Of a DNA stretch of 64,000 bases, positions 26,669 through 33,577 are shown in pieces (position 1 is the first letter of the stretch; each line of letters begins with the position of its first letter). A model generated the notes under the pieces. It had not been told where the DNA came from and made no database searches. It saw only the letters and a program-made list of their open reading frames with translations. Made by a program: the position numbers and the translations under genes. This DNA is from Bdellovibrio bacteriovorus (GTDB taxonomy: Bacteria; Bdellovibrionota; Bdellovibrionia; Bdellovibrionales; Bdellovibrionaceae): positions 496,001-560,000 of the forward strand of contig NZ_CP020946.1 in NCBI RefSeq assembly GCF_002208115.1, written 5' to 3'.

Positions 26669-27274
26669 TTACTTCAGAAGGCCCTTGGAGCGGCTGTAGC
26701 CGATCTTGATCAGCATTCTGAGGGCTTCCAGATCCGAGCTCAGGTTGAACTCGTCTTTGACTTCCTGAATCATGGCTTTGGAGCCACAATCAAGCATATC
26801 CAGGGTTTCCGGGGCGCGGGAGGTCGTCGTCAAAGTCTTTTCTGTGTAGGAAACCTGAGTCTGCGTTGCCGGTGCCGGAGGCATCGTCATCACCGGCTGA
26901 ACCGGTGGCAGCACCTGCTGCTGCATCTGAGGGACGTGCTGAACTTGATGAACCGGCTGTTGCGGAGCCATCATTGGTTGTGCCTGAACTGCGGCGGCGG
27001 CAGCGGCTTGTACGACAACAGAACTAGCCTGAGGTGCGCGATCCAATTCGCCCATCATTCCGGCCAGGCTTTTCAGCTCGTTTTTGAAGTTCTGAATGCT
27101 GGGTCTTTCCAGAGAATGTTCACCATCACGGGTGGCCTTCAGATACAGGCTGACCAGAATGTCCGGAGTTGTTGCCATTTCCTTGATAGAGCTGTTCTGC
27201 ACCATAAGCCATTGATAGGCTTTGAGCATCGTCTCTTTCGTGTAAGCCTGTGGCGGCAACGGATTCATGGTCAT
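26669..27274 (-). CDS. Gln/Pro-rich protein with conserved-looking ends, unknown
   Basis: A 201-residue cytoplasmic-looking protein without signal peptide. Residues 1-78 are helical (TKETMLKAYQWLMVQNSSI); 80-150 form a low-complexity Ala/Gln/Pro/Met stretch (VQAQPMMAPQQPVHQVQHV); 155-201 are again helical (MIQEVKDEFNLSSDLEALRM followed by LIKIGYSRSKGLL), resembling a ribbon-helix-helix-like or docking module. I do not recognise it. A regulatory scaffold is possible. GGAGA upstream supports the start at 27274; it lies downstream of nothing obvious and is probably monocistronic. Confidence 0.7.
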   Translation of the reverse strand: MTMNPLPPQAYTKETMLKAYQWLMVQNSSIKEMATTPDILVSLYLKATRDGEHSLERPSIQNFKNELKSLAGMMGELDRAPQASSVVVQAAAAAAVQAQPMMAPQQPVHQVQHVPQMQQQVLPPVQPVMTMPPAPATQTQVSYTEKTLTTTSRAPETLDMLDCGSKAMIQEVKDEFNLSSDLEALRMLIKIGYSRSKGLLK

Positions 27275-28483: not shown

Positions 28484-30007
28484 TTAGTTCGAATAGTCTT
28501 TGGCGATGATGCCGTACTTTTCGATTTTTCTGAGAAGAGTCTTCTTTGGAATGTTCGCATGCAATGCTGTCTGATTGATGCGGCCGCGGAAGGTTTTCAG
28601 AGCCTTGATGATAAATTCTTTTTCGAAGGCTTCTTTCTGGGCGTTGAAATCCAGATTTTCGCCAGAGTAAGCGATCATCTCGCCGTCGTCTTCGTCCAGG
28701 TCCATGCCGCCGACATCGCCGTCTTCGTCATCACCCAAAGAAGCGTGAGCCTGAATTGCAGAGCTGATGCCCGCAGAAGCCACGTTCTGAGCGGTTTCCT
28801 GAACCGGAGGAACGTCGATCAGGTTTGTGCCTGTCGCGATCAACAAAGCTTCCGGCAAAGAGGCGATCGTGATCACATTGGACATTTCCAGAACGAAAGC
28901 GTGTTCGATCACGTTTTCGAGCTCACGGATGTTTCCTGGCCAGCTGTGTTTTTTCAAAACAGCCATGGCATCCGGCGCGATGCCAGTGATGCGTTTGCCA
29001 TGGGCCTGGTTGAACTTGCGGATAAAGATGTTCACCATGTGTTCCATGTCGTCTTTGCGTTCAGCCAAAGCCGGCAGGAATATAGGTACAACGTTCAGGC
29101 GATAGAACAGGTCCTCACGGAAAGTGCCGGCTTTGATCATGTCCTCCAAAGGACGGTTGGTCGCAGCGATAATACGCACGTTCGTTGGGAATTCACGGTT
29201 GGAACCCACTGGAGTGAACAGTTTTTCCTGAAGCACACGCAGGATCTTCACCTGCATCAGCTGAGGCATGTCGCCCACTTCATCCAGGAACAGAGTGCCG
29301 CCTTCAGCAAACTGGAATTTACCAATCTTGCGCTGATCAGCACCGGTGAAAGAGCCTTTTTCGTGACCGAACAATTCGGATTCAAACAGATTTTCCGGGA
29401 TAGCAGAACAGTTGATTGCCACGAATTTTTCGTCTTTGCGGGCCGAGTTGAAGTGGATGGCTTTCGCCACCAGTTCTTTACCCGTACCGGAAGCACCACG
29501 GATCAGAACCGGGGTTTCCACTTTCGCCAGACGATGGATGATGTTGAACACCTTCTGCATCTGGGAGGTATGACCGATGATTTTGCGGCCTTCTTCCACC
29601 ATCACGGGGGCAGAGGCGGCGATATTGGAAATCAGATTATGGGCGTTAACGGCTTTGTCGATCAAAGCCAGCAGGTCATCACCCGCCACTGGTTTTTGCA
29701 GATAGTTGTAAGCGCCGTCTTTGACTGCCTGAATGGCAGATTCAAAGGTCGCGTGGGCGGTCATGATGATAACGATGATGCCTGGATCGAATTCTTTGAT
29801 CTGGCGAAGGGCTTCAAGGCCGTTCATGCGAGGCATGTCGACATCAAGCAGAACAAGGTCGTATTTCTTGTCGCCGTTTTTCACTTTCTCCATGGCATTC
29901 ACGCCGTCGAAAGCTTCATCAACTTCGAAGCGCTGAGTAACCGCAAGTGCGGACTTTACCGAAAGTCTTAAGCCCTGATCATCGTCTACAACCAAAACCT
30001 TAAGCAT
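28484..30007 (-). CDS. NtrC-family sigma-54-dependent response regulator
   Basis: A 507-residue regulator. Receiver at 1-120 (VVDDDQGLR, phospho-Asp in LVLLDVDMPRMNG, Lys in LQKPVAGD); AAA+ domain about 145-390 with Walker A GASGTGKELVAKAIH, sigma-54 contact loop ESELFGHEKGSFTGADQ (GSFTGA in place of GAFTGA), Walker B GGTLFLDEVGDMP and the arginine-finger region; a strongly acidic linker (about 425-455, DLDEDDGE); and a Fis-type helix-turn-helix (INQTALHANIPKKTLLRKI) at the end. It should activate sigma-54 promoters when phosphorylated by the CHASE2 kinase, whose gene overlaps its start by 8 bases. Confidence 0.93.
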   Translation of the reverse strand: MLKVLVVDDDQGLRLSVKSALAVTQRFEVDEAFDGVNAMEKVKNGDKKYDLVLLDVDMPRMNGLEALRQIKEFDPGIIVIIMTAHATFESAIQAVKDGAYNYLQKPVAGDDLLALIDKAVNAHNLISNIAASAPVMVEEGRKIIGHTSQMQKVFNIIHRLAKVETPVLIRGASGTGKELVAKAIHFNSARKDEKFVAINCSAIPENLFESELFGHEKGSFTGADQRKIGKFQFAEGGTLFLDEVGDMPQLMQVKILRVLQEKLFTPVGSNREFPTNVRIIAATNRPLEDMIKAGTFREDLFYRLNVVPIFLPALAERKDDMEHMVNIFIRKFNQAHGKRITGIAPDAMAVLKKHSWPGNIRELENVIEHAFVLEMSNVITIASLPEALLIATGTNLIDVPPVQETAQNVASAGISSAIQAHASLGDDEDGDVGGMDLDEDDGEMIAYSGENLDFNAQKEAFEKEFIIKALKTFRGRINQTALHANIPKKTLLRKIEKYGIIAKDYSN

Positions 30008-31880
30008 GAGTGCCCCCTTGTTCGATGGGTAGTTCTACCGTAAATGTGGAACCATTACCATGGGAAGATTCTACAAAAATGTTTCCCTGATGTAATTCCG
30101 TGAAGTATTTCGCCAGATACAGGCCCAACCCTGAACCCTTGATAGGGGAGGATTTGACGTTTTTCGATCTGAAGAACTTCATAAAGATATTCTGCAATTC
30201 ATCCTGCGGGATGCCCGGGCCCTGATCGGCCACCTGAACGATCACCTTAGAGGGTGTTTCCTCGCTGCTGACCATGATTTTCGTGTCTTCCGGGCTGTAT
30301 TTGATGGCGTTTTCCACCAGGTTCGAGAACACCTGTTTCATCAGCTCCGGGTCGACTTGAACCGGGAACATGGGTTCCAGTTCCGACACGATTTGAATGC
30401 GTTTCACCTTGGCCAGGAACTCGTGCTTGCGGATAACCTCTTGTAAAAGGTTATTGATGTCCTTGCTTTGCATGTTCAACTGCACGCCCTGACTTTCAAT
30501 TTTACCGTAGCTTAAGATGGCATTGATGAATTTCAATAGATCATCAGAGGAATGTTTGATCGTGTCCACGGCCTCGCGCTGCTGGTTGCTCAGTGCGACC
30601 GAGTCGGTCAGGATCACATCGGTCATGCCCTGAATGCGCGCAATTGGCGTTTTCAAGTCATGGGACATCATGGAAATGAAGTTGGTTTTAAGCTCTTCCA
30701 CCTGGCTGAGCAGTTTATTCTTCTGATAGTACTCCCAGCTACGGCGGTTTTCCACGATCAGGCGGTAAGGGATAAAGAAGTAATAACACAGGAAGATTGT
30801 CAGCAACGGTGCCGCCATTGGCAGCCACAATCCGAAGCCCCAGTAAGCGCCCGCACATAGAATCACAAACCCCAAGAGTGTCGCGCCCAGAACAATCAGG
30901 CCGCGGGTGGGTTTCATCGTCAGCACCACTTGTGTGGTCAAAACCGACGCAATCAGAATAAACAGCCAGCTTAGGTAGCCGGAAACTTTCACCGGGCCCG
31001 AGTTTTTGATCAATGTGTCGATGACATTGGCCTGCATCTCGATGCGGGTCATGGCGGTCACTTCTCGGCTGAACGGAGTCATGATGTATTCAGCTTCATT
31101 CAAGCCCAGATCCGTTCCGATCAGGACGATTTTATCTTTAAAACGGGAAGGGTTCACTTCGCCTTTAAGAATAGCTTCAAAGGAAGTTGCCGGGTAAGAG
31201 CGCGCCGGATGGAAATCGATGTACGCCTGGTCAGTGCCATAGAAATCAAACTGACCCCGGATGCTGTCCACTTGCATGGCCTGAGGATTCACCAGACTTG
31301 CCAATCGCACCGGCAGCATAGGGCGGTCCTGATAAGTCAGAATCATACGACGGGTGACACCGTCTTTGGCAAAGTTCACCAGATCGGTTGTCTTGGGTGC
31401 AGGAGAAATCGAGACCTGTTCCAGAGGCTCTTGCAGGAACATCTGGTTTTCTTCACCCTTCATGGGCGTCGTGCGACCGGCGACAAAAACATGCGGAGAA
31501 GCAACAATGGCTGATTCCCAGGCATTCTTTTCGTCAATTGTTCCTGGAACCTCATCAAAGGCAAAATCATAGGCAATGGCTTTGGCGCCGCTGTCATTCA
31601 GGGCCTTCAACAGAGCAATCTGTTCCGGGGCGGAAGGATAACCTTTATAGAACTGAACAGTCTGTGGAGTGATATAGATCAGCTCGACGTTGCCGGAAGT
31701 GGAATTGAGGATTTTTGTGCGAACCCGCAGATCGTAAAGATAGGACTCAAGATAATCCAGGTTGGTTTGGCCGATGAAAAAAGAAATCCCCACTGCGAAC
31801 AACATTCGCAGCGCAAGTGCTTGGTAGGAGCGTCTTTTGGAGGCTCCGGATTTCTCTTCAAGGGAGGGAGGAAGAGTCAT
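30000..31880 (-). CDS. CHASE2-domain sensor histidine kinase
   Basis: A 626-residue membrane kinase. One helix (about 22-40), a periplasmic CHASE2 domain about 41-290 (YDLRVRTKI, IAYDFAFDEVPGTIDE, FKDKIVLIGTDLGLNE), three helices about 300-375, then HisKA with phospho-His in MMSHDLKTPIARIQG, and HATPase with N-box LVENAIKYSPED, G1 ADQGPGIP and G2 GSGLGLYLAKYF. All boxes look active. CHASE2 senses unknown extracytoplasmic signals. It starts 32 bases after a 38-residue peptide gene and overlaps the regulator gene, so it probably belongs to the radical-SAM/peptide transcript. Confidence 0.93.
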   Translation of the reverse strand: MTLPPSLEEKSGASKRRSYQALALRMLFAVGISFFIGQTNLDYLESYLYDLRVRTKILNSTSGNVELIYITPQTVQFYKGYPSAPEQIALLKALNDSGAKAIAYDFAFDEVPGTIDEKNAWESAIVASPHVFVAGRTTPMKGEENQMFLQEPLEQVSISPAPKTTDLVNFAKDGVTRRMILTYQDRPMLPVRLASLVNPQAMQVDSIRGQFDFYGTDQAYIDFHPARSYPATSFEAILKGEVNPSRFKDKIVLIGTDLGLNEAEYIMTPFSREVTAMTRIEMQANVIDTLIKNSGPVKVSGYLSWLFILIASVLTTQVVLTMKPTRGLIVLGATLLGFVILCAGAYWGFGLWLPMAAPLLTIFLCYYFFIPYRLIVENRRSWEYYQKNKLLSQVEELKTNFISMMSHDLKTPIARIQGMTDVILTDSVALSNQQREAVDTIKHSSDDLLKFINAILSYGKIESQGVQLNMQSKDINNLLQEVIRKHEFLAKVKRIQIVSELEPMFPVQVDPELMKQVFSNLVENAIKYSPEDTKIMVSSEETPSKVIVQVADQGPGIPQDELQNIFMKFFRSKNVKSSPIKGSGLGLYLAKYFTELHQGNIFVESSHGNGSTFTVELPIEQGGTHA

Positions 31881-31912: not shown

Positions 31913-32029
31913 TTAGCGAACCGGGATGCAGCCTTCGCCAGTACCGCCGCCAGGACCGGCCAGCTTGGTAGTGGATGAAGGTTTGGGCTTCAGAGGTTTG
32001 ATTTTTTTGATATGTGTTTGCTGTGTCAT
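31913..32029 (-). CDS. 38-residue Gly-rich peptide, candidate RiPP precursor
   Basis: A short gene starting 8 bases after the radical SAM stop, with AGAGGA 4 bases ahead of its ATG. The product has a Lys/Pro-rich leader-like half (residues 1-22, including KKIKPLKPKP) and a Gly-rich end (LAGPGGGTGEGCIPVR, residues 23-38) with a single Cys at 34. It has no signal peptide, no hydrophobic helix and no aromatic residue. Short basic leader plus Gly/Cys core next to a SPASM enzyme is the usual form of a RiPP precursor, in which the Cys thiol could be joined to a backbone or side-chain carbon. Family not recognised; modification is inferred. Confidence 0.7.
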   Translation of the reverse strand: MTQQTHIKKIKPLKPKPSSTTKLAGPGGGTGEGCIPVR

Positions 32030-32037
32030 AGTTTCCT

Positions 32038-33354
32038 CTAGCAGGTGGCCCTGCTTAATTTATAGTACATAAAAGTGGTTCCAATCAAGCTGCGCGTGCG
32101 GAAGCAGAACTGACCGTCCTTTTGGTGCTTGCTGCCCGTGCCTTTCTTGTGGATGAACATGCAGCCGCCACCGCATAGGAACCGCGCCCAGCAGCTTTGG
32201 CAGTTGTTTTTTTCAATCAATGGCGCCTGTTCGGCCTCCATGCGGGCAAAGTCAACGTCTGTGCCTTGTCCGACTTTTTCTTCCTGATTTCCCACTTCCC
32301 AAGGGCAAGTGAACAGGTTGTTTTTGGCATCCATCATCAGGAAGGATTTACCAGAGCCGCAGAAGTTTTCCGTCTGCTGCTGATTGTCCAGTGCGTTGAA
32401 GTACTGGTCGAAGATGCCCACTTTACGAAGCTCTTCCTCGCCGCCGGCTTTGAAGGCCATTTCAGCGATCTGATTCATCTGATCGACGAACAGCTTGTTG
32501 CTGGCATCGTCATTTTCTTCCACTGAGTAAGTGAACTCATAGCGGTCCGCATTCAGGGTTTTGTAAAACTCGTAAGCTTTTACCAGCTCCAGGTTTTCAC
32601 GGTTGAAAACGCCGTGCAAAGTCAAACGACCCAGGGATTCGCGAACGGCAGCAAGCTGTTTCAGACCTTCAACAACCAACGAAGTGCTGCCGCGACCGTC
32701 TTTGGAAGGGCGGGCCTTGTCGTTGGTTTCTGCCGGGCCGTCCAGGCTGACGGTGACATTGGTTTTCAATGAAGTCAGAACTTTCAAAGTTCTTTCGTTG
32801 ATCAAAGTGCCGTTGGTCACAATCGAAAAAGACGCATGAATGTTCTGGCCTGCAGTCATCAGGCGAACATAGTTGCCGATTTCCTGAATGCCGTCCGGGT
32901 AAAGCAACGGTTCGCCGCCCAGGAACGTGATGTTGAATCTGCCACCTGCAGGAACACGCTCCAGGAAGAACTTCAACTGCGGCAAAGTTTTTTCAACGTT
33001 GATTTTGGTTTGAGCGGAACCATAAGTTCCGTCACCACCGGCTGCACAGTAAGTGCATTTCAAGTTGCAGATCTGGGTCACGTTGATAGTCAGGCTGCGA
33101 ATGCCCACAGAAAGGCGGCCGGATTTAACGTCAGGGCTGTTTTCCAGCTCCCAGTTTTTCAGCGCCACGGCGGCGTCGTCAGCCCCCAAGGATTCCTGAC
33201 TCATCTGGTTCCAGGTGTCTTCAGAAATCTCGGCGATTTCAAGATTGCGGGCATGGAAAGCCAGGGGAGCTCCTTGGTTCCATTTGAATGCCACAATGTC
33301 TTTAAATCGTCTTTGTTCCATAGTCAGTCCAAGGTATTGCAATAAGCGTTCCAT
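32038..33354 (-). CDS. Radical SAM/SPASM peptide-maturase-like protein
   Basis: From the ATG at 33354 the product has 438 residues; an ATG at 33321 is a reasonable alternative with a GGA 6 bases upstream. Residues about 10-80 could be the peptide-recognition region (VAFKWNQGAPLAFHARN). The radical SAM 4Fe-4S site is CNLKCTYC (Cys96, 100, 103), followed by FLGGEPLLYPD and VTVSLDGPAE. The C-terminal third carries SPASM cysteines: FCGSGKS, FTCPWE, NNCQSCWARFLCGGGCMF and FCFRTR, enough for two auxiliary clusters. SPASM enzymes commonly modify short peptides; the peptide gene directly follows. Sulfatase-maturase activity is an alternative, but no sulfatase is nearby. Confidence 0.9.
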   Translation of the reverse strand: MERLLQYLGLTMEQRRFKDIVAFKWNQGAPLAFHARNLEIAEISEDTWNQMSQESLGADDAAVALKNWELENSPDVKSGRLSVGIRSLTINVTQICNLKCTYCAAGGDGTYGSAQTKINVEKTLPQLKFFLERVPAGGRFNITFLGGEPLLYPDGIQEIGNYVRLMTAGQNIHASFSIVTNGTLINERTLKVLTSLKTNVTVSLDGPAETNDKARPSKDGRGSTSLVVEGLKQLAAVRESLGRLTLHGVFNRENLELVKAYEFYKTLNADRYEFTYSVEENDDASNKLFVDQMNQIAEMAFKAGGEEELRKVGIFDQYFNALDNQQQTENFCGSGKSFLMMDAKNNLFTCPWEVGNQEEKVGQGTDVDFARMEAEQAPLIEKNNCQSCWARFLCGGGCMFIHKKGTGSKHQKDGQFCFRTRSLIGTTFMYYKLSRATC

Positions 33355-33577
33355 AATGAGACACGGCAAGCCTCTGACATAATTAAGTAAAATCAATTAC
33401 TTAGGAATACATGCGGTGGTGTTTTTTTGGCCTCTTTGAGGGGGGCTGGGAGCAAAAGGAAACTATTTCAGGGGGTGTCTAAAAGGTCCCTAGGTTCCGG
33501 GGCGGTGGCAAAGATGAGGAAACTCGTAAAGCAGGAAGTCTTTGTCGATTCATTCTAAAAAAAAGTCCCGGATTGGT

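Follow-up and report, generated by a model that had tools for sequence, protein, structure and literature searches.

Sulfatases are recognized through the target motif CxPxR, and the catalytic base of the sulfatase maturase anSME is an Asp located after the third auxiliary-I Cys. This enzyme contains eight SPASM Cys residues (PMC5682303). In the SCIFF system, the precursor CteA binds to the recognition domain of CteB as a strand (PMC8326336). Within the literature that we searched, little has been published on the RiPPs of Bdellovibrio-type bacteria: one survey refers to Bdellovibrionota RiPP clusters in no more than general terms (PMC8067016), and no description of Bdellovibrio RiPPs with radical SAM enzymes was found in the open-access literature. 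Here, we characterized a locus in a 64,000-nucleotide stretch (the window) of a Bdellovibrio bacteriovorus genome (a 3.77-Mb single contig of the Bdellovibrio type). The minus strand carries, in this order, genes for a radical SAM/SPASM enzyme, a 38-codon peptide, a CHASE2 histidine kinase, and an NtrC-type regulator (Table 1). On balance, we consider it reasonably probable that the locus represents a new radical SAM RiPP family, probably with one Cys-centered thioether, made as the output of a two-component system that controls its own expression.

Table 1. Features of the maturase-peptide operon (positions in the window)
Feature	Position	Strand	Basis
Radical SAM/SPASM peptide maturase, 427 aa	32038..33321	-	Pfam Radical_SAM, 64.7 bits; closest solved structure CteB
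Maturase N-terminal leader-binding (RRE-like) domain, residues 1-60 (inferred)	33142..33321	-	Models and CteB alignments
Radical SAM cluster motif CxxxCxxC, C85-C89-C92	33046..33069	-	Invariant in 49 homologues
SPASM region, 7 invariant Cys: C321, C339, C374, C377, C383, C387, C406	32104..32361	-	49 homologues
Precursor peptide gene, 38 aa	31913..32029	-	Counterpart in 71/72 loci
Leader motif HIKKIKP, peptide residues 6-12	31994..32014	-	H[IV][KQ]K in 48/70, HIK-like in 66/70
Conserved core C34-I-P-V-R	31916..31930	-	C-x-P in 63/70 peptides
CHASE2 sensor histidine kinase	30000..31880	-	Pfam CHASE2, HisKA, HATPase_c
NtrC-type response regulator with sigma54-activator domain	28484..30007	-	Response_reg, Sigma54_activat, HTH_8
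Sigma54 (-24/-12) promoter TGGAACGCTTATTGCA	33338..33353	-	Sole match in 64 kb; conserved 5' of maturase

The peptide gene encodes MTQQTHIKKIKPLKPKPSSTTKLAGPGGGTGEGCIPVR, and AGAGGAAACT stands 5' of its ATG, which was confirmed to lie 8 nt past the maturase stop. For comparison, we used 72 homologous enzyme loci (i.e., the window, L033 to L092, L007, L008, L009, L018, and L142 to L148) from three families of the order Bdellovibrionales, with enzyme identities of 33 to 100%. A conserved peptide frame beside homologous enzymes had been set beforehand as a test of the original prediction, and such a frame was found: a short ORF adjoins the enzyme in 71 of the 72 loci, and in the sole locus without one (L076), the contig ends 31 nt past the enzyme stop. 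An ORF fitting the family motif occurred at the expected place in 51/59 loci versus 8/2174 random windows from the same loci. The peptide was absent from all 11 loci that contain the kinase and regulator but no enzyme. All loci compared are related by descent, and the counts are thus not independent. A codon pattern without protein-level selection would also have spoken against the peptide, and it was not observed; in nine close relatives, the pooled pN/pS of the peptide was 0.28, and the substitutions at the three codon positions (274/188/609) were most numerous at the third. No NCBIfam model matched the peptide family (seven peptides tested), and a comparison with Rfam gave no match. The locus therefore has a short precursor gene that adjoins a maturase gene and is conserved together with it, as expected of a RiPP system, and the proposal of a candidate new precursor/maturase pair is supported by the conserved frame, the protein-level selection, and the lack of a match to a curated peptide family. 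The modification itself is inferred, but the maturase very probably modifies the adjacent single-Cys peptide.

Most Bdellovibrio-type bacteria hold the peptide, radical enzyme, sensor, and regulator in one fixed four-gene operon. In the window, a gap of 32 nt separates the peptide stop from the kinase start, and the regulator gene overlaps the kinase gene by 8 nt. The kinase is located directly 3' of the peptide, and the regulator 3' of the kinase, in nearly all loci with contigs of sufficient length; the exception is L059, in which no regulator was detected and an 843-aa ORF occupies its place 3' of the kinase. The original prediction had recognized the enzyme-peptide pair but overlooked this conserved operon, with its CHASE2 kinase, sigma54 regulator, and sigma54 promoter. 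The operon does not include a protease or exporter gene. Downstream, a protein of about 200 aa with unknown function (26669-27274 in the window) is encoded 3' of the regulator on the same strand in 47/60 loci; it is also present in enzyme-less genomes, just before lspA or ileS.

Exactly one Cys is present in 62/63 curated peptides, and it is followed by x-Pro in most peptides of the family, with C-x-P-x-[RK] in 24/70. Around this Cys, position -1 is Gly in 43 of the 70 peptides, position +1 is mostly Ile, Val, Leu, or Pro, position +2 is Pro, and position +4 is mainly Gly, Arg, or Lys but also Ser or Asn. The N-terminal motif H[IV]KK[VI]KP is nearly as constant as Cys-x-Pro, and the stretch between the leader motif and the Cys varies freely in both length and sequence; leaders are poor in L090 and L091, the two loci that diverge most. 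The Gly richness that had been taken as a family trait is confined mainly to close Bdellovibrio relatives, which rules out a Gly-rich core as the defining trait; the conserved parts are H[IV]KK[VI]KP and Cys-x-Pro. Because the invariant part consists of one Cys followed by x-Pro, Gly is unlikely to be a universal modification target. Around the Cys, the 70 peptides share no acceptor residue, whether by identity or by spacing. A PapB-type CX3D thioether was also considered and rejected, as the motif is absent from the same peptides. Some loci depart from the usual arrangement. Peptides of family f4 often end in C-P-E rather than C-x-P, and one precursor of this group (L145:5897-6031) contains two Cys residues, GCIGKNHCPEID, while others end in CPE. 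At L047:7744-7975, two tandem, non-identical precursors (MNTKTQHIKK...SCIPIG and MKTTTTKHVKK...ACIPSGLPNSSSN) are located 3' of one maturase. Both lack Asp and Glu altogether, an argument against a Cys-Asp/Glu thioether.

The maturase most likely starts at the Met at 33321 rather than at the upstream TTG at 33396, judging from the starts of the homologues and the position of the sigma54 promoter. Its CxxxCxxC motif and seven SPASM Cys residues are all invariant among 49 homologues, which places it among the SPASM enzymes. The CxxxCxxC motif had been correctly predicted, whereas the "full set" of SPASM cysteines holds only in the sense of the seven-Cys kind. The Cys pair 255/261 of anSME corresponds to a single Cys in the window maturase, as in CteB, and this suggests that auxiliary cluster I of the maturase may have an open site. 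Such an open site would favor a mechanism involving the substrate thiolate (i.e., a thioether) over formylglycine formation. The best NCBIfam models were those for PapB, the nif11-like peptide maturase, and the SCIFF maturase, all of which scored well under their cutoffs: the PapB ranthipeptide maturase model (NF047865) gave 188 bits against a cutoff of 340 and the SCIFF maturase model (TIGR03974) 138 against 425. The scores for the anaerobic sulfatase maturase model (TIGR03942; 94 bits; cutoff, 349) and the QhpD model (114 bits; cutoff, 453) were likewise under the cutoffs. CteB was the closest solved structure both by sequence profile (E value, 8e-49) and by fold (Foldseek), although the maturase has no close solved relative. 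The Foldseek alignments of the maturase with CteB, which has an N-terminal RRE, covered 437 to 478 columns.

Some relatives have the peptide in the same reading frame as the enzyme, and reading the enzyme stop as Ser yielded a single enzyme-peptide chain for AlphaFold2. The read-through models of L036 (pLDDT, 85.8; pTM, 0.87) and L065 (pLDDT, 87.6; pTM, 0.90) both showed four strands followed by two helices in maturase residues 1 to 60. The IKKI/IKL portion of the HIK motif formed a strand, with local pLDDT values (10-residue means) of approximately 77 and 83, respectively. From these models we infer, without binding data, that the HIK strand pairs with the N-terminal sheet of the maturase. 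The linker before this strand was less confident in both models and differed between them. The C-terminal core was disordered (pLDDT mostly <50), and the Cys was not placed at the SAM site in either model.

The promoter motif 5' of the maturase is the only sigma54 -24/-12 match in the window, in which 0.21 matches were expected. Across loci, a motif with at least 8 of 10 consensus bases was found 5' of the enzyme in 38/59 loci versus about 1.4 expected by shuffling, and 5 of the 11 enzyme-less loci have a sigma54 site 5' of the kinase. The genome also contains an RpoN gene. All elements of a sigma54 two-component system (i.e., kinase, NtrC-type regulator, -24/-12 promoter, and RpoN) are thus present, and the regulation itself is inferred; from the promoter, RpoN, and the regulator, we predict that the operon is autoregulated by its NtrC-type regulator with sigma54. 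The transcript may start at about 33327, i.e., 6 nt before the Met codon, in which case the enzyme mRNA would be nearly leaderless and the TTG start unlikely. A link to Bd3393 of strain HD100, which is annotated as the RagB kinase and is changed in a host-independent strain (PMC3818213), was dropped; the tag could not be mapped to the operon, and the nearby Bd3395 is a flagellar gene.

Among the 144 class-level and 291 phylum-level genomes searched, strong matches to the enzyme model were found only in three families of Bdellovibrionales. A contig search with the window sequence alone returned only two close Bdellovibrio MAGs, and occurrence outside Bdellovibrionota is not excluded. Plasmid homologues that are at most 32% identical were not accompanied by such a peptide in the four examined. 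Those on Bradyrhizobium (L151) and Mycetohabitans (L154) plasmids, with maturase relatives about 29 to 32% identical, belong to a different gene cluster together with a ferritin-like protein, hypothetical proteins, and a tryptophan halogenase. In the 11 enzyme-less loci, the kinase and regulator occupy the same site 5' of ileS or lspA, mostly 3' of the same penicillin-binding protein gene. Five of them, namely L129, L132 (G029), L134, L137, and L140, are nested among the enzyme-positive loci in a midpoint-rooted tree of kinase and regulator; here the maturase and peptide have seemingly been lost, and the CHASE2 kinase, regulator, and neighbors have been kept in place. With the caveat of midpoint rooting, the simplest reading of the tree is that the enzyme-peptide unit was lost several times and the kinase retained.

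Two other functions of the gene pair have to be weighed against a thioether-forming maturase. The core CIPVR fits the sulfatase motif CxPxR, the conserved determinants sit C-terminal of the Cys, and among solved structures anSME ranks second by sequence profile, so that an anSME-like enzyme could oxidize this Cys to C-alpha-formylglycine, which would leave the peptide with an aldehyde (-18 Da). We regard this as improbable, given that the maturase has seven SPASM Cys rather than eight, carries a Pro (C339-P-W) where anSME has its Asp, and scores 94 bits with the sulfatase maturase model versus 188 with PapB; moreover, position +4 is Gly as often as Arg/Lys. It is also conceivable that the enzyme matures another protein, with the small ORF serving as a leader or a regulatory element rather than as a precursor. 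The highly variable sequence between the two motifs and the lack of a known product would be compatible with this, but protein-level selection, the invariant Cys, the modeled leader strand, and strict co-occurrence with the enzyme make it very improbable, and an offset from the enzyme stop that varies from about -60 to +217 nt across loci argues for a translated substrate.

A further question is whether the modified peptide acts back on the adjacent CHASE2 kinase as a ligand or feedback signal (i.e., a RiPP pheromone or an internal checkpoint). The peptide gene sits between the maturase and the kinase in related loci, its broad vertical conservation is unlike that of an antibiotic, and a reference listed in PMC8326336 reports SCIFF ranthipeptides in clostridial quorum sensing. 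However, orthologous kinase-regulator pairs occupy the same site in the 11 genomes without enzyme and peptide, some of them nested among positives, and no exporter or signal peptide was seen. The divergence of the kinase sensor domain did not differ measurably between loci with and without the peptide (mean residual, -0.016; SD, 0.04), so this comparison of sensor and kinase divergence lends no support to a specific ligand. A ligand role remains possible but unlikely. Since such pairs persist without the peptide and the sensor divergence shows no measurable difference, we read the peptide as an output first and as a ligand only as a rival interpretation. The most far-reaching version, a lineage-wide RiPP signal with a radical-made single-Cys modification of an undescribed C-x-P kind, made under the control of a sigma54 two-component circuit and with feedback on the CHASE2 kinase, is in our view quite unlikely.

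In the output interpretation that we favor, the kinase would sense an unknown envelope or extracellular cue through its CHASE2 sensor and phosphorylate the NtrC-type regulator, which together with sigma54 would fire the -24/-12 promoter, leading to production of the maturase, precursor, kinase, and regulator. The HIKKVKP segment of the precursor would then form a beta strand and dock on the RRE-like domain of the maturase, a step supported by computation only, and bring the C-terminal Cys-x-Pro to the radical site. The auxiliary cluster without a fourth Cys may bind the substrate thiolate, and the modification of the single Cys would most likely be one thioether to a carbon of the backbone or of a side chain nearby. 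A thioether (-2 Da) is plausible because of the kinship of the enzyme, and this chemistry is inferred.

Since the peptide family is unmatched by curated models, it points to an overlooked modified peptide of predatory bacteria and their relatives. It has been retained vertically in almost all of the complete genomes examined at the Bdellovibrionaceae level, and this suggests that its role is physiological and not that of an antibiotic. With only one Cys in the core, the chemistry is easy to assign, and the operon links the peptide with a kinase whose CHASE2 sensor is an orphan, in a predator amenable to genetics.

Of the described systems, CteA/CteB (SCIFF; a thioether ranthipeptide; PDB 5WGG/5WHY) shares with this locus a SPASM radical SAM enzyme, an adjacent short precursor, and broad conservation in one bacterial group; its N-terminal RRE and strand-bound leader have counterparts here that are inferred from the models only. 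It differs in that SCIFF precursors contain six Cys, whereas the peptide described here has one, located in C-x-P; the maturase is only about 20% identical to CteB, and the operon includes a kinase and a sigma54 regulator. PapA/PapB (freyrasin; Cys-Asp/Glu thioethers) provides the best-scoring NCBIfam maturase model, but the CX3D/E motif is missing here, and some precursors (L047) have no acidic residue. The SPASM fold of anSME is shared, and its C-x-P-x-R target resembles CIPVR, but anSME differs in its SPASM Cys number and in a catalytic Asp without an equivalent here, and it acts on a sulfatase, not on a peptide of 38 aa. QhpD, the quinohemoprotein amine dehydrogenase maturase, is likewise a thioether-forming SPASM enzyme, but no quinohemoprotein gene was present among the neighbors examined. 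The thioether enzyme AlbA resembles the maturase in having a seven-Cys SPASM domain.
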